Positions 2,745 to 62,940 of a stretch of DNA of 64,000 nucleotides are shown piece after piece. The translations under genes and the position numbers were made by a program. Source of the stretch: Clostridiales bacterium (GTDB taxonomy: Bacteria > Bacillota > Clostridia > Oscillospirales > Oscillospiraceae); NCBI GenBank assembly GCA_021202775.1, contig JAJQCJ010000109.1, forward strand, positions 21,390 to 85,389, given 5' to 3'. How positions within the stretch are numbered: the first letter of the stretch is position 1; every line of letters starts with the position of its first letter. Below the pieces are notes generated by a model. The model was given only the letters and a program-made list of their open reading frames with translations, searched no databases and was not told where the DNA came from.

Positions 2745-3535
2745 CAGATAAAGGCTTGTTTTATGAGGAAATGGAGATCAGCACGGCAGACCTCCGGGTT
2801 CCCCACGCCAGCTACCAGAGGAGCCTGAGTGTGGCTCGTGTGAGACGAATCGCCCAGAACTTTGACGAGCGCATCGCCAACAAGCCGAAGGTCAGCTATC
2901 GGGACGGCAAGTTCTATGTCTTTGACGGACAGCACACCATCGCAGCCCGGCGTCTCCGCAACAACGGCGAAGACTTGCCTGTCGCCTGCAAGGTTTATTA
3001 CGGCCTCACGGAGCAGGACGAGGCGCTCCTGTTCGCACAGCAGTTTGGATTCTCCGATGTGCTGACTGCCGGTGCCAAAATGCGGGCGCTGATCTACGGC
3101 AGAGACCCGGAAGCCTTGGCCTTTCTGGAGGCAACAGAAAGCGTCGGTCTGCACCTGGATTACACCCAGAACCTCGGTGAGAACCTCGGTGAAAACCGGA
3201 TTGGCTGCATCAGCACGGCATTCCGGGCATTCCAGCGGGTCGGCAGAGAGAGCTACACCGAAGCGCTCAGCATTCTCACGGAGGCATGGCATGGGGAACC
3301 TCACTCCCTGCGGGGCGAGACTGTCCGGGCCATGATCGAGTTCGTCGATCTCTATAAGGGCGAGTTCAGCCGTGACCGGCTGGTGGCTAAGCTCCAGATG
3401 GTCGATCCCCTGACGATCTACCGCAAGGGACAGGCGATGGGTGTCAACATGGCCGGGTACAAGAAGTATCTGTATCAGGTCTTTTGCATCTACAACGGCT
3501 CCAGCAAGAAGTCGGCGCTGCCCCTGAAGTTCTAA
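2741..3535 (+). CDS. ParB-fold/DUF6551-like protein
   Basis: SYQRSLSVARVRRIAQNFDERIANKPKVSYRDGKFYVFDGQHTIAARRLR; start overlaps the previous stop (ATGA). Confidence 0.7.
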   Translation: MTDKGLFYEEMEISTADLRVPHASYQRSLSVARVRRIAQNFDERIANKPKVSYRDGKFYVFDGQHTIAARRLRNNGEDLPVACKVYYGLTEQDEALLFAQQFGFSDVLTAGAKMRALIYGRDPEALAFLEATESVGLHLDYTQNLGENLGENRIGCISTAFRAFQRVGRESYTEALSILTEAWHGEPHSLRGETVRAMIEFVDLYKGEFSRDRLVAKLQMVDPLTIYRKGQAMGVNMAGYKKYLYQVFCIYNGSSKKSALPLKF

Positions 3536-50725: not shown

Positions 50726-50773
50726 TGGTGGAGATAAGCGGGATCGAACCGCTGACCTCTTGAATGCCATTCA
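50726..50773. repeat. Left att copy (3' half of tRNA-Ala)
   Basis: tggtggagataagcgggatcgaaccgctgacctcttgaatgccattca, identical to 57152-57199. Confidence 0.92.
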
Positions 50774-50869: not shown

Positions 50870-51974
50870 CTATTCCGCTTTGTTGAGTTTATCGGCTATG
50901 TCTGCCCTTCGGTTCTTCCTGATATGGGTGTAGGTGTCCATGGTCACCTCGATTTTACTATGGCCCAAAAGCTGTTGTGCGTCCTTCGGAGCTATCCCTG
51001 CTTCATAGCACATGGTAGCAAAAGCGTGGCGGAGCTGATGCGGGGTGACAGAGGGTTCCTTCACCAACTTGGTGACATTCCTCCGGCCCTCGGTGCGGGT
51101 GACTTCCTTCCACTCCCACAGGCCAGCGTTGAGGCAGTAGGCCCTCCACTTCGAGCGGTACACCGATTGCGTCAAGGGCCGCTCCCCGCCGAAGATATAG
51201 GCCGCCCCCTTCTGCTGGAGAGGGAACAGCTTCTTTGCCAGCCTGTCCAGCAGCACCACTTCCCTGTTCCCGGCCTCGGTCTTTGGGCTTTTGATGACCG
51301 GCTGATTGCCTGTCTCCGCGTAAGTGACGGACTTGGTGACGTGGATGGTCTTGGTCTTGAAATCCACGTCCCGCCACTGTAGGGCCAGCAGCTCACCCGC
51401 GTCTCAGACCGGTGTATAGCAGCATATAGGCAAATAAGCCGAACTCATCGTCTACGTGCTGCCGGATAAGCTCTAACGCTTCATCCTCCGGACATTCCCG
51501 TGTCCGGCTGCTCAGCCCCTTCGGCACTTTCGGGGTTGCCGCCGGGTTGTCCTGCCTGTCCCCCTGTAGGATGGCATACTCAAAAATTTGATTCAGCACT
51601 GACAGGTAGATTGCAACGCTGTGGTGAGCGTACATCTGCGCCGCCATGCGTTCCATGGACTTCTGTAGGTCGAGCGGGGTGATGTTCCTGATCGGATAGT
51701 CCCCGAACTCATCCAGCGCACGAAGCAAGGCGGGGTTATAGCTGACCTGTGTGCCGGCTGCGATTTCGTTCCAGTGCTTCTCTTGCCATGCCGTTGCAAC
51801 CGCTCGAAAAGGTTGACCGCTATCTTGTTTCGCTTGCCATTCGAGCATTTTGCGTTTGGCTTCTTGTTGCGTCTTGCCATAAAACGATTTCCGAACTTTC
51901 TTGCCGTTCTCCATGACCATAACCCGAACCTGAAAAAGCCCGTCTGCCCTCCGTTTCGTTTTTGAAGTTGCCAT
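50870..51974 (-). pseudogene. Tyrosine recombinase/integrase disrupted by an apparent single-base insertion
   Basis: N-terminal SAM-like part ends YTGLRRG*; continuation ELLALQWRDVDFKTKTIHVTKSV...TPHQLRHAFATMCYEAGIAPKDAQQLLGHSKIEVTMDTYTH in another frame. Confidence 0.85.
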
Positions 51975-52104
51975 GTTCAACGCCTCCTTGATGGCATTGT
52001 AGCACGGCCTTTTGATTCTTGCAAGCTATTTCTTCTTGTTGTGCCTTGATTTTTCCGCTCACATTTGGTATAATCATAGTATCATCATAGAGGGGGGCAT
52101 TCAC

Positions 52105-52290
52105 ATGGCTACGCCATTCGCGAAAATCAAAGATGCCGCTGCTATCACGGGGTTGTCGGAACATTTCTTGCGTAAGGGATGCCAGAACGGCACCGTGCCT
52201 GCGATTAAGAGCGGGACAACGTACTACATTGACGTGGAAAAACTGCTGGAGCAGCTTCACAAAGAGGCGGAACAGCCGAAACAGGATTGA
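52105..52290 (+). CDS. Excisionase-like HTH protein
   Basis: FAKIKDAAAITGLSEHFLRKGCQNGTVPAIKSGTTYYIDVEKLLEQL. Confidence 0.85.
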   Translation: MATPFAKIKDAAAITGLSEHFLRKGCQNGTVPAIKSGTTYYIDVEKLLEQLHKEAEQPKQD

Positions 52291-52410: not shown

Positions 52411-52620
52411 GGGTGTACACGGAAATCAAGTTTTAGGTCAAACATGCCAAAGAAACCCCTCAGTCTGGCCTTGCGTCCAGCCAGCTCCCCTTTCAGGGGA
52501 GCCAATGACGTGGTGATTTCCACAGTTTTCTTGCCTCCCCCGAAGGGGGAGGGGGACCGGCGACAGCCGGTGGAGGGGTTCCTATGCGAAACGGATTTCA
52601 AAATTGATTTCCATGGCGGG
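52411..52620. repeat. MITE-like dispersed repeat, short copy (~210 bp)
   Basis: Ends (ttttaggtcaaacatgccaaagaaaccc ... gggggaccggcgacagccggtggaggggttcctatgcgaaacggatttcaaaattgatttcc) match 62173-62940; ends are imperfectly inverted (ggaaatcaa/ttgatttcc). Confidence 0.7.
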
Positions 52621-52624
52621 TGTA

Positions 52625-53137
52625 ATGGTGATTAAAACCGACCGGAAGATGGGGAACTATACCGAGATCAGCAACATCGTTCTGCATGATGAAAACCTTC
52701 ATTTAGGGGCAAAGGCGCTGTTCTGCATTTGCGTGTCTGAGAAGCAGGATGGATGGAACTGGAGCGAAAGCGGCGTTGCAAAGCGGTGCCATATAACACG
52801 AGGAACCGCCGCAACATACCTACAGGAGCTGCAAGAACATGGTTATCTGTATCGTGTCAAGCAGGAACAGAAGGGGAAGTTCGGCAAAAACCAGTACAGC
52901 TATGTTTTCTACGAGCGGCCCTATCTGGAAGTAGGGGCCTTCGAGATGCCTGACAACGTCAATCTGTCACAAGCCGATTATGATTCACTAGTGAAACGCT
53001 TCGGGAATGATACTGTCCATGACTTCATCGGCACACTGTCACAGCTCAAACGAGATAGAGGGGAAGATGCGCTTCGGGGCCATACCGATTTCGAGATGCT
53101 AGAAGGAACGCTGATCAAACGGGCAGCAGGCCAATAA
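52625..53137 (+). CDS. HTH protein, putative replication initiator or replisome-organiser-like
   Basis: MGNYTEISNIVLHDENLHLGAKALFCICVSEKQDGWNWSESGVAKRCHITRGTAATYLQELQEHGYLYRV; located next to iteron-like arrays. Confidence 0.65.
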   Translation: MVIKTDRKMGNYTEISNIVLHDENLHLGAKALFCICVSEKQDGWNWSESGVAKRCHITRGTAATYLQELQEHGYLYRVKQEQKGKFGKNQYSYVFYERPYLEVGAFEMPDNVNLSQADYDSLVKRFGNDTVHDFIGTLSQLKRDRGEDALRGHTDFEMLEGTLIKRAAGQ

Positions 53138-53249
53138 CACCCCAATAACGCCCCAAAGGCACCGCCATTTCTGCTAATGGCACCCCCAATGGCAAGCCAA
53201 TGGCACCCCATGAATACGGTTGCTTTCTTTTGCTTTCAGTTTGCTTGGA

Positions 53250-53315
53250 AGTAACTTCGAAGTTACTTCGGAGTAACTACCGAGTAACTACCGAGTAACT
53301 ACCGAGTAACTGCGG
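53250..53315. repeat. 11-bp tandem array (about 6 x agtaactaccg-like)
   Basis: agtaacttcga/agttacttcgg/agtaactaccg x3/agtaactgcgg; begins in a perfect 22-bp palindrome at 53248-53269. Confidence 0.9.
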
Positions 53316-53322
53316 AGTAGCC

Positions 53323-53402
53323 CAACGAAGGTCAACGAAAACCAACGAAGGCCAACGAAGCGCAACGAACTTCAACGAACTCCAACGACGGTCAACGAGA
53401 AA
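53323..53402. repeat. 10-bp tandem array (8 x caacgaNNNN)
   Basis: caacgaaggt, caacgaaaac, caacgaaggc, caacgaagcg, caacgaactt, caacgaactc, caacgacggt, caacgagaaa. Confidence 0.92.
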
Positions 53403-53480
53403 CCCACTGAAACCCAAAATAACCCAAAGAAACCCAACCGAACCCACTGAAACCCAACATAACCCAAAATAACCCCCTGT
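53401..53480. repeat. 10-bp tandem array (8 x aacccNNNNN)
   Basis: aacccactga, aacccaaaat, aacccaaaga, aacccaaccg, aacccactga, aacccaacat, aacccaaaat, aaccccctgt. Confidence 0.92.
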
Positions 53481-53529
53481 ACCCGCTCGACCAACTCAAA
53501 AACTATGCTATCACCTGTTTACCGTTGCT

Positions 53530-53573
53530 CAAAATTTGGGCGCCCAAAATTTGGGCTGCCCAAATTTTGGGCG
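53530..53573. repeat. Three near-palindromic cccaaaatttggg-type sites
   Basis: caaaatttgggcgcccaaaatttgggctgcccaaattttgggcg. Confidence 0.85.
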
Positions 53574-53772
53574 TCGGTAAATCTAGCATAAATAAGAACT
53601 ACCTAACTACCTAGAATTAAGCACTATGTTGAGTAAGAACTGTCTTTAACAAATATATGCGTAATCCATCCATCCTAGGGAAACGGTAGTAGAAATAGAT
53701 AAGGGGGTATGGGGGAGAAGGAAAGGGAGAAGGAGAGGGGCGAAAAACGACTGTGCAGCGTTTGAACACATC

Positions 53773-53832
53773 TGCATTCAAATGCATTCAAGTCGATGCG
53801 CTTCGATGCGAACGGATGCGCAAGCATGTTGC
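53773..53832. repeat. 10-bp phased array around tgcattca/gatgcg
   Basis: tgcattcaaa, tgcattcaag, tcgatgcgct, tcgatgcgaa, cggatgcgca, agcatgttgc. Confidence 0.75.
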
Positions 53833-53909
53833 TCAATACGGGCATTTCAATCGCTGTGAAGAGCTTCGTTCCAATCTGAGCTTGCTCAGCGGCCCTCAGG
53901 GCGGCTTTT

Positions 53910-54018: not shown

Positions 54019-54441
54019 ATGGGCGGTGAGGTGGTGGTGGTGATGGATATGAAAACATTGTCCAAATATCATGACACCATGAAGCAGGTCGAGCGGGACA
54101 CGGAGATTTTGCAGAACCTCAGGAGCAGAGCGTCCCCCGCCTCCCCGGTGCTGGATGGCGTACCACACGGCAGCGGAGGCCATGCCGATAGGACGGCCTT
54201 CCTTGCTACGGAGTGCGCCGCCATGGAGGAGAAGATTGCAGAGCTGGAGGCTCAGGCAGCGGCGGAGCTGGAGCAGCTGGAGCGATTCATATCTGGGGTT
54301 GACGATGAGAGAGCGGCAATTTGTATCCGGCTGCGTTACATCCGCTTCATGCCATGGTCGGAGATTAGCGAGGTTCTGGGGCTGTGGTCGGCCTCAGCCA
54401 GTAGGAAAATAGTTAGTCGATATTTAGCACATAGCAACTAA
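54019..54441 (+). CDS. Phage-type transcriptional regulator (DUF1492/ArpU/sigma region 4-like)
   Basis: Coiled-coil region then ERAAICIRLRYIRFMPWSEISEVLGLWSASASRKIVSRYL. Confidence 0.7.
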   Translation: MGGEVVVVMDMKTLSKYHDTMKQVERDTEILQNLRSRASPASPVLDGVPHGSGGHADRTAFLATECAAMEEKIAELEAQAAAELEQLERFISGVDDERAAICIRLRYIRFMPWSEISEVLGLWSASASRKIVSRYLAHSN

Positions 54442-55064: not shown

Positions 55065-55331
55065 TCAGGTCTTGACCTCCTGTGCCAACTTCGTGCCGTA
55101 CTTGAAGCCGTTGACGAAGCCGCACTCTGCAAACGACTCCGACAATTCACACAGCATATCGTTGAGTTCGCTGTTCTCATCCTTGGAGCTGGCCAGCTTG
55201 TCGAGCTGATCGGAGAGCATGGCATAGGCTTTGTCGGCCCTTTCTGAACGCTGGTAGAACTTGGAGAGGGGGTTCAGGTCGTCAACCTCATCGGCGGCTA
55301 AGTAGTAGATGCTCTTCAAAATTTCGTTCAT
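55065..55331 (-). CDS. Small accessory protein (DUF6809-like)
   Basis: MNEILKSIYYLAADEVDDLNPLSKFYQRSERADKAYAMLSDQLDKL...FVNGFKYGTKLAQEV. Confidence 0.55.
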   Translation of the reverse strand: MNEILKSIYYLAADEVDDLNPLSKFYQRSERADKAYAMLSDQLDKLASSKDENSELNDMLCELSESFAECGFVNGFKYGTKLAQEVKT

Positions 55332-55454
55332 AGTAAACACATTCCTTTCTTGACGGCGGGGCGGCTGCATGGTAGAATATTTGCAACCGCCCCTGTGGGT
55401 GGTTCTACTCCCCCTTGTGTGTATGCTTGCCGGCCTCACACACAAGGGGCTTTT

Positions 55455-55742
55455 TCATGCCTCGGTTGCCCCGATCAGGAACCGGGTGGAGACGCTGGCC
55501 TTCATGTACCGGGCAGCCATGGCGGGGTTCTCAGCCTTGAAAGCCTTCTGATCAAAGCGGCTTGACTGCACGTTCTTCCAGCTTGCTTTCCATCCGTCAC
55601 CGGTCAGGGCCTCGGTTCCCTGTTCCACCATGGCCCCCTTGAGGGTGTCGGTCAAGGCTTCGGCCTCTGCCTCCAGCTCTGCAATCTGTGCCTTGATGTC
55701 CAACAGGGTGCGGGCGGTGGTGTTGATGTCGTTGGTACTCAT
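55455..55742 (-). CDS. Phage-like small protein (Gp157-like coiled coil)
   Basis: DIKAQIAELEAEAEALTDTLKGAMVEQGTEALTGDGWKASWKNVQSSRFDQKAFKAENP. Confidence 0.6.
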   Translation of the reverse strand: MSTNDINTTARTLLDIKAQIAELEAEAEALTDTLKGAMVEQGTEALTGDGWKASWKNVQSSRFDQKAFKAENPAMAARYMKASVSTRFLIGATEA

Positions 55743-56001: not shown

Positions 56002-56139
56002 TCTATTGGCATTTCCTACAAAGATAACGATATATTTTTGTGTATTATGTCTATTGATAACGGTAGACTTCTGTGTTATACTGTAACCATAATGGAAGAG
56101 GTGCCGGGATTTTTCCGGCCCCCTGTGGAGGTGAAAGCA

Positions 56140-56346
56140 ATGCCAGTATCGAAGGCACAGCAGAAAGCTGTGGCAAAATACGAAAGCAAGGTATACGACA
56201 AAACGCTGATACGGATGCCGAAGGGGACGCTTGCCAGAGTAAAGGCCCACGCAACCGAGCGGGGCGAAAGCGTCAACGCCTATATCAACCGAGCCATAGC
56301 GGAGGCTATGGAGCGGGACGGGGAAGGAGGCTCAGATCATGCCTGA
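56140..56346 (+). CDS. Ribbon-helix-helix (Arc-type) regulator
   Basis: KTLIRMPKGTLARVKAHATERGESVNAYINRAIAEAMER. Confidence 0.8.
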   Translation: MPVSKAQQKAVAKYESKVYDKTLIRMPKGTLARVKAHATERGESVNAYINRAIAEAMERDGEGGSDHA

Positions 56347-56596
56347 AATATCTCTTTTTCACGGTATACGCATAACCATGTACTACAACGACCACAACCC
56401 GCCGCATTTTCATGCAGAGTATGCAGGACACAAGGCGTTGGTGGACGTTCTGAGCGGCTGTGTGATACGGGGTTCCCTTCCCGCTCGACAGTTGAAACTT
56501 GTGCTTGCATGGAACGAACTGCACAGGGATGAACTTATGCAGAATTGGGAGCTTGCCAGAGATGAAAAGCCCCTGAATCCTGTTTCCCCGCTCTAG
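56339..56596 (+). CDS. DUF4160 family protein
   Basis: MPEISLFHGIRITMYYNDHNPPHFHAEYAGHKALVDVLSGCVIRGSLPARQLKLVLAWNELHRDELMQNWELA. Confidence 0.88.
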   Translation: MPEISLFHGIRITMYYNDHNPPHFHAEYAGHKALVDVLSGCVIRGSLPARQLKLVLAWNELHRDELMQNWELARDEKPLNPVSPL

Positions 56597-56607
56597 GAGG
56601 TGCTATA

Positions 56608-56904
56608 ATGGATTCTTACTTTCCCGCTGTGGTGCAGGCCGTTCCCGGCGAAGGCCGGACGGTGTACGCCTATTTCTCCGATGGCAGTATCCGGCGCTAT
56701 GATATGCAGCCCCATATTGACCGGGGCGGCGTGTTTGCGCCGCTGGCAGACGAAACGTTTTTTACCGAGCGGCTCACCGTCCTGAATGATACAATCGCGT
56801 GGGACGTATCCGGCCACTTCGACCCTACCGCCTGCATTGATATTGACCCCTTCACCGTTTACCAGTCGGAGGCCGTTGCTGACCCGCTGGAGGCCGTGTC
56901 ATGA
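56608..56904 (+). CDS. DUF2442 family protein
   Basis: VVQAVPGEGRTVYAYFSDGSIRRYDMQPHIDRGGVFAPLADETFFTERLTVLNDTIAWDVSGHFDPTACIDIDP. Confidence 0.88.
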   Translation: MDSYFPAVVQAVPGEGRTVYAYFSDGSIRRYDMQPHIDRGGVFAPLADETFFTERLTVLNDTIAWDVSGHFDPTACIDIDPFTVYQSEAVADPLEAVS

Positions 56905-57030
56905 ATCCGGCGTATACAACCGCATAGCAGCAAAGAAGGGGGGAGCATATCAAAGCACTCCCCCTTGTTTTATCCCTGTATACGCCTACACCCCTCTACC
57001 CCATTTTTACCCCATTTATCCTGCTATTCC

Positions 57031-57060
57031 TTGCTAGGTTATGCTAGGATTTGCTAGGTG
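57031..57060. repeat. Three 10-bp direct repeats (ttgctaggtt/atgctaggat/ttgctaggtg) near the right att
   Basis: Exact 10-bp spacing; possible integrase/Xis arm sites. Confidence 0.65.
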
Positions 57061-57113
57061 GGCGGTTTTCGATTCTTGAACGATTGACCGCCAAAAGTGG
57101 CATAAACAAAAGA

Positions 57114-57151: not shown

Positions 57152-57227
<76 letters not shown>

Positions 57228-62172: not shown

Positions 62173-62940
62173 TGGGTGTGTATGAAAATCGGGTTTTAGG
62201 TCAAATATGTCAAAGAAACCCCGCAGCTTCCGCTGCTCCGTCGTACTGCGCGAAGCCTGAATCCTTGCTTTTTTGTAGGGGCGGCCCTTGGCCGCCCGGT
62301 CACGTTTTCTTATTCAGTAATGTTTGATGTAAGAGCAACGTTCTTTCCCGTTTGCGGGGCCATTCGTTTCTTAGAGAAGGATACTGGAATGAAATACAGC
62401 TTTTGCCCTTGCCAGGGCATGGCCTGACAGCCGCGTTATCACTTTTAGCATCTCCTCCTCGGCCAATGAGCCTTGCCAGCATAGCTGGCTGCAGTTTTCG
62501 GCTAAAAATATGCCGCTGGCATATTTTCTCAACGCCGCAAACTTGCTCCGCCAAGAAAAGTAGCAAAAGAAGGCGGCTTAAGGGGAAGCTCGGGGCCTCG
62601 CTCCCCCTTAAGAATCCCTCTCCTATAATCCCCGGGGCTTCGCGCTGTCCAGCCTGTCAGTGGTCTATCAGGCAACAGACGAAGTAACTTTCAGATGGTG
62701 AGACTGCCGCCGATGGCGGCTGGCAGGGATTGCCGCCCACGTTCCAGCCTTACGGCGGAACGGGCGGCAATTTTGTTGCCCATTGGTCGTGGAAATCTAA
62801 ACTGTACGGCTACGGTATGCTTCTCAACTCAGGATAGATTGCATCCTAAGTTGATGACATTGCCTTTCAGGGGAGGGGGACCGGCGACAGCCGGTGGAAG
62901 GGTTCCAATGCAAAGCGGATTTCAAAATTGATTTCCGTGG
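62173..62940. repeat. MITE-like dispersed repeat, long copy (~770 bp)
   Basis: Termini match 52411-52620; interior contains the REP-like hairpin at 62275-62298. Confidence 0.6.

Follow-up and report, generated by a model that had tools for sequence, protein, structure and literature searches.

The phased repeat arrays in and around positions 53250 to 53480 of the window (the whole 64,000-nucleotide stretch analysed) are real and, on our best reading, of a known kind, a phage-type iteron origin, carried here in several types within non-coding satellite-like DNA. We give a probability of about 0.48 to the reading that these arrays are where initiators would bind within a composite origin of replication, on a satellite-like mobile element of 6.4 kb in a gut bacterium. 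Two of the arrays closely resemble the sites at which replication-starting proteins of different phages are taken to bind, which suggests that the element could use or sequester replication proteins from several phages. The unusual part is the presence of several array types together on one small element; the arrays are:

Array A, 53131..53163, plus strand: CCAATAACRCC twice plus one degenerate unit, 11 bp
Array B, 53176..53209, plus strand: AATGGCA three times, 11-12 bp
Array C, 53220..53249, plus strand: TTGCTT three times (AAGCAA on the opposite strand), 9-11 bp
Array D, 53250..53322, plus strand: six to seven AGTAACTACCG-like units, 11 bp
Array E, 53323..53400, plus strand: eight CAACGANNNN units, exactly 10 bp
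Array F, 53401..53480, plus strand: eight AACCCNNNNN units, exactly 10 bp
Array G, 53770..53840, plus strand: TGCATTC twice, then GATGCG, 10 bp
Array H, 57000..57065, plus strand: TACCCCATTTT twice and TGCTAGG three times, 10-11 bp, in a region common to the related element L119

Arrays D, E and F adjoin one another and are preceded by the shorter arrays (CCAATAAC, AATGGCA and TTGCTT), such that ~340 bp of nearly gapless units keep a step of ~10.6 bp. Read in 11-bp steps from 53250, array D consists of AGTAACTTCGA, AGTTACTTCGG, three copies of AGTAACTACCG, AGTAACTGCGG and a unit beginning AGTAGCC; the eight CAACGA copies of array E start at 53323, 53333 and so on to 53393, and the eight AACCC copies of array F run from 53401 to 53471, both with a period of exactly 10 bp. 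A first-pass annotation of this DNA had described three consecutive helically phased arrays, and these stand far above chance: identity over 60 bp reached 0.88 at lag 11 and 0.78 at lag 10 vs. maxima, at any lag from 8 to 14, of 0.57 when the region was shuffled 1000 times with dinucleotides preserved and 0.58 when the whole window was shuffled 40 times, and Tandem Repeats Finder recovered identical D, E and F arrays. The looser repeats that it had reported upstream were found as well (CCAATAACRCC twice from 53131, AATGGCA three times at 53176-53209, and TTGCTT three times at 53220-53246), and its description of the region as non-coding holds, with no forward ORF of at least 50 aa covering the arrays. 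Because no forward ORF covers them and periods of 10 and 11 bp do not keep the reading frame, a coding repeat was ruled out. The short arrays G (GATGCG/TGCATTC, 10 bp) and H, and an 89-nt stem-loop at 53504-53592, lie on the same element and were absent from that annotation.

All 16 mismatches of array E to its consensus fall in the four spacer columns and none (0/16) in the six-column core, a pattern at least as extreme in 0 of 20,000 random placements; in array F, 17/17 mismatches fall outside the five core columns (P = 0.0001, random placement), and in each of the two arrays P for an invariant core with free spacer is below 0.0005. The same test could not distinguish array D from a slippage repeat or uniform divergence (P = 0.14), and intergenic minisatellites at loci L158, L182 and L190 gave P values of 0.28-1.0. 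Since their cores are invariant while their spacers are free, arrays E and F look like protein sites rather than slippage products; array D may be either, and this AGTAACT array is the weakest part of the case.

The first-pass annotation had recognised no class to which these arrays could belong, a view that fails because phage DUF6291 replication genes contain single-core one-turn arrays of these same kinds. When viral contigs were scanned for three patterns, AACCC-10 and CAACGA-10 were found inside phage genes whose product starts with Pfam DUF6291 and in several cases runs on into replication-initiation or DnaD-like parts. CAACGA-10, matching array E, lay in a DUF6291 gene in 6/14 viral contigs (p = 0.001) and AACCC-10, matching array F, in 7/28 (p = 0.01), vs. 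2/49 for the permuted control ACACGA-10; with a narrower DUF6291 alignment the viral scan gave 4 loci. One of the seven AACCC-10 genes (L037) has whole units in common with array F (AACCCACTGA and AACCCAACCG), AACCC arrays occur in two further genes of the same genus (L087 and L100), a prophage in the same bacterial family (L070) carries GCAACGA repeats similar to array E in its DUF6291 gene, and AGTAACT-11, the pattern of array D, was found in one phage initiator gene (L069).

An unbiased library was assembled from DUF6291 genes of same-genus, family and order genomes, with segments further downstream as controls, and at least three copies of a 5-mer at 9-11 bp were present in 34/84 DUF6291 linkers vs. 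1/74 controls (Fisher p = 2e-10). The commonest linker cores were AGCAA/AAGCA, AACCC and GAACG, the first of which is the core of array C and the most frequent of all, with 8 matching loci; the array D core GTAAC occurs in one linker (L261), the array G core GATGC in two (L231 and L263), and the array B core ATGGC in a same-genus phage gene (L104). In translation the linker gives KPTETQKNPTE or something close to it, and AT-rich hexamers come after it, for example GATAATGATAAA; the same layout of one-turn iterons in a coding linker and then AT-rich hexamers was noted across the phage genes of this family (PF19808; L084-L113, L219-L272 and others). These patterns suggest that DUF6291, of which we found no mention by name in the literature searched, may be an origin-binding domain. 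Arrays E and F have the 5-6-nt core at 9-11 bp and the free spacer of such origins. On the other hand, the arrays are non-coding, the element has no DUF6291 gene, and in place of the AT-rich 6-bp tandem (GATAAT-like) that stands right behind the phage iterons there is a general AT-rich stretch (53580-53699) behind the stem-loop; the non-coding position and the lack of hexamers behind the arrays count against a composite origin. Two layouts were seen elsewhere: a non-coding TTCGACA 10-bp array (L123:9123-9182) precedes by ~250 bp a DUF6291 gene that itself contains AACCC repeats, and one viral contig (L065:5289-6136) carries at least five different non-coding 10-bp arrays, most with a TTAC-like core (TGTAACCCCA, GTAATCTCAG, GTTACTCAGG, TTACCCACAG and TTTACGTTGG).

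How far the element's arrays match local phages was assessed with nulls that keep cores contiguous, which superseded a column-permutation null that broke up cores and was too lenient. The eight array families matched 17/34 library linkers (~5.4 expected, P about 0.002), and 5/8 element arrays matched phage-origin cores of the same bacterial order (~2 expected, P about 0.01). D, E and F alone gave no significant match to the unbiased DUF6291 library (P 0.25-0.41), and arrays A-C, G and H were delimited after sequence inspection; a panel of phage-type sites is therefore suggested by these results but not firmly established. CAACGA did not occur in that library, and only the directed scans revealed it; of the three D/E/F cores, only AACCC was matched among genus phage genes, and no phage gene in the same genome had a matching array. 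The homologous islands that the first-pass annotation had proposed to look for did not emerge, as a search of 201 family and 32 genus genomes for the exact array patterns yielded little besides the window. No viral contig had the joint CAACGA-AACCC pattern, no other element with the same array combination was found in the genomes and viral contigs searched, and DNA similarity to phage records was limited to short chance matches.

The element that holds the arrays, in its non-coding DNA, is 6.4 kb long and is integrated in tRNA-Ala between 48-bp att repeats; besides its replication region it has these parts:

attL, 50726..50773: 48-bp direct repeat of the tRNA-Ala 3' end
Tyrosine integrase, 50870..51980, minus strand: two reading frames, 50870-51367 and 51393-51980
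61-aa excisionase/MerR-type HTH-like protein, 52106..52290, plus strand: named by position
ArpU/RinA-like regulator, 54019..54441, plus strand: PHROG 36 transcriptional regulator, 8e-11
DUF6809 small protein, 55065..55334, minus strand: Pfam 6.5e-7
Protein like the C-terminal part of the RecE-like exonuclease family, 55455..55742, minus strand: PHROG 434 2e-13, 6244 6e-12
Arc-type ribbon-helix-helix protein, 56128..56346, plus strand: Pfam Arc 1e-4, PHROG 13890 3e-18
DUF4160 and DUF2442 gene pair, 56339..56904, plus strand: Pfam 5e-25 and 2e-5
attR, 57152..57199: identical 48 bp, end of the tRNA-Ala(ggc) gene 57152-57227

The integrase matches Pfam Phage_integrase (1.6e-13) and Phage_int_M (3.5e-9), and in the window copy it is split by a frame change, a gene disruption or an assembly error; the element may therefore be decaying. 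The 61-aa protein matched no family in Pfam or PHROG searches and, from its position, would be xis-like; a similar short gene stands at the same place (3308-3508) in L119, a related element in another species of the genus (G028:C22). L119, which occupies a site of the same kind, has an intact 370-aa integrase that is 94% identical and a right end that is 98% identical, with a different rep gene bearing in-gene 11-bp repeats (GGATACAACT, TGTATACAACC, TGTATCCAAAT and TGGATACGCAG), and so the element family swaps its replication module. Its att site, integrase and gene content make the window element satellite-like: it is att-integrated with an integrase (frame-disrupted here), as PICI/PICMI-like phage satellites are, and Pfam and PHROG searches of its proteins found no structural, packaging or primase genes and none of the AlpA or packaging-redirection genes that such satellites carry. 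Separately, two dispersed repeat copies (52546-52612 and 62870-62936; 29 + 21 identical bases in equal order and spacing) are probably an interspersed element of this genome.

The replication region itself has three further parts:

Rep, 52625..53137, plus strand: 170-aa winged-helix replication-initiation-type protein, PHROG 1456/186/4707/4221, 1e-10
Stem-loop, 53504..53592: 89 nt, three palindromic CCCAAAWTTTGGG repeats at 15-16 bp
AT-rich stretch, 53580..53699: 64-71% AT, adjoining the iterons, candidate unwinding region

The PHROG families matched by Rep are replication-initiation or helicase-loader families, and the protein is related to phage initiators and DnaD-like loaders. Relatives were found in 23/59 genomes; those of the genus (217-254 aa) are 28-35% identical and mostly longer, with linker DNA carrying 15-bp repeats, then an AT-rich stretch and then a C-terminal domain, and the window Rep lacks this iteron-coding linker. 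The in-gene repeats are of a 15-bp CC-N6-GG type (CCGGATACGGAAAAC, CCAACGTTGGAAAAT and similar), most of the genus relatives examined have them, and none has one-turn arrays; no close relative of Rep turned up in the genome contigs searched. One phage record of 6.6 kb with a Rep relative (MT837548) has none of the arrays, and carries a longer rep gene together with one for a ParB-like protein. The stem-loop folds as DNA at -30.6 kcal/mol (z = -9.1), and its palindromes (53526-53573) are of the form CC-N7-GG at 15-16 bp spacing, centred on 53531, 53546 and 53562; they may be where the element's own Rep binds, or else a structured origin signal.

The first-pass annotation had seen in the arrays an origin or nucleoprotein site for the adjacent Rep or for an unknown filament-forming protein. 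Its origin-type, protein-binding half remains the best reading, supported by cores that come with free spacers; its choice of Rep as binder is less likely, since the relatives use 15-bp CC-N6-GG iterons and Rep thus probably does not own the 10-bp arrays. We hold with moderate confidence that the palindromes at 53526-53573 would be the part that belongs to Rep. A private origin or partition site at which Rep tolerates many AAC-containing cores in one-turn phasing would fit the direct adjacency of its gene, the AAC in most cores, the nearly gapless run of units across 340 bp, and a locus (L158) at which different one-turn arrays likewise lie beside a gene with a C-terminal wHTH; but genus relatives have 15-bp repeats and no such arrays, E and F each keep a distinct core strictly, and we consider this explanation unlikely.

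In the composite origin that we favour, several array types are placed next to one another, outside coding sequence and upstream of the Rep-candidate palindromes and the AT-rich stretch, and are built like the one-turn iterons that phage replisome-organisers (chiefly DUF6291 proteins) would bind in their own genes. A replicating phage's matching initiator would coat its array in helical register and load helicase at the neighbouring AT-rich stretch, whereby the element would be amplified, and the arrays would compete with the phage's own origin for initiator, as a natural form of phage-encoded resistance (PER). Neither protein, Rep or the DUF6291 type, had a solved structure near it in a structure search. 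A stronger version, to which we lend only tentative credence, is a multi-phage origin mimic, a panel of initiator sites drawn from several unrelated phage replication systems, any of which would trigger amplification while being starved of its own initiator. If this is true, satellites could gain a wider choice of helpers, or protect their host, by means of bare DNA that imitates the origins of several phages, and would need to encode neither a primase nor a defence protein; DUF6291, whose function is unknown, would be an origin-binding domain, and the linker of its own gene would reveal its short core; and phage initiator specificity and phage-satellite pairing would become predictable from sequence.

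Origins of Firmicutes phages with replisome organisers (TP901-1 ORF13, Tuc2009 Rep2009; SPP1 gp38, oriL) are initiator-bound direct repeats beside an AT-rich region (PMC8965321, PMC6316719). The DUF6291 genes, which show one-turn arrays with the cores of the window element, resemble these in-gene origins. However, in TP901-1, Tuc2009 and SPP1 a single repeat family lies within the gene that encodes the initiator, whereas the window element has several families, in non-coding DNA, and none of those initiators. Among satellites, the nearest origin is that of PLE, a small integrated satellite of the Vibrio cholerae phage ICP1 that has a RepA_N initiator and an origin with iterons and depends on phage factors (PMC7145576). 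PLE is like the window element in being small and integrated with its own initiator and, on our reading of the latter, an iteron origin, but its RepA has one family of ~30-bp semi-palindromic repeats without phage-type arrays, and its integrase type differs. The minimalist PICMI satellites of Vibrio phages (~6 kb, few genes, integrase-borne; PMC10803314) are similar in size, gene number and integrase, but encode AlpA and a primase, of which the window element has neither.

The nearest documented effect to the proposed competition is PER in Lactococcus, in which a phage origin or organiser in trans confers resistance (PMC8965321); it was seen with one cloned origin, whereas the window element is natural and would carry several origin types, and no description of such a natural element was found in the literature searched. 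That cloned phage origins with replisome organisers give the PER phenotype (PMC8965321) also bears on a pure decoy, in which the arrays would titrate the initiators of several phages as defence and have no role in replication of the element. Several initiator types would be covered, and the eight units of E and of F equal or exceed most phage origins seen (3-8), but palindromic repeats and an AT-rich stretch beside the arrays are the layout of a working origin, and a single integrated copy would titrate few initiator molecules without amplification of the element; we judge a pure decoy improbable.

One-turn arrays were also found away from phage origins. AGTAACT-11 arrays occur at 60 places in 85,462 genomes, several of them in ordinary intergenic DNA (L182, L188 and L193), and AGTAACT-type 11-bp arrays stand 23-190 bp behind genes at four loci (L149, L158, L167 and L169) that are similar to a 488-aa protein with a C-terminal wHTH and that we take, from our own reading of the sequences rather than a tool match, to be of AlbA_2/ATPase type. 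These may be a separate class of helically phased arrays; L158 has three different one-turn arrays downstream of its AlbA_2/ATPase-like gene, and composites of different one-turn units occur there and at L178, L193 and L211. One-turn arrays, found in intergenic DNA and behind AlbA_2-type genes, are thus not confined to phage origins, and part of the region may be a private multi-site scaffold or a product of slippage. It is distinctly unlikely that the whole consists of functionless minisatellites of one-turn length born by slippage: unrelated bacteria do carry composite 10-11-bp arrays between genes (L152, L178, L188 and L193) and array D fits uniform divergence, but slippage does not produce arrays such as E and F, in which every mismatch lies in the spacer. 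That the arrays are relics of exchanged replication modules, each the linker of a lost phage-type gene, is very improbable, for although the rep module at this position differs in L119 and ~20 codons of array F read as a peptide like that of a DUF6291 linker, the arrays adjoin without flanking gene remains or hexamer repeats and the cores are intact in 16/16 units of E and F.

Elsewhere in the window, two more 11-bp arrays lie back to back at 391-458, AGTATGCNNAA three times and then AAGTTTGTGGA twice, directly behind an ORF that ends at 382.
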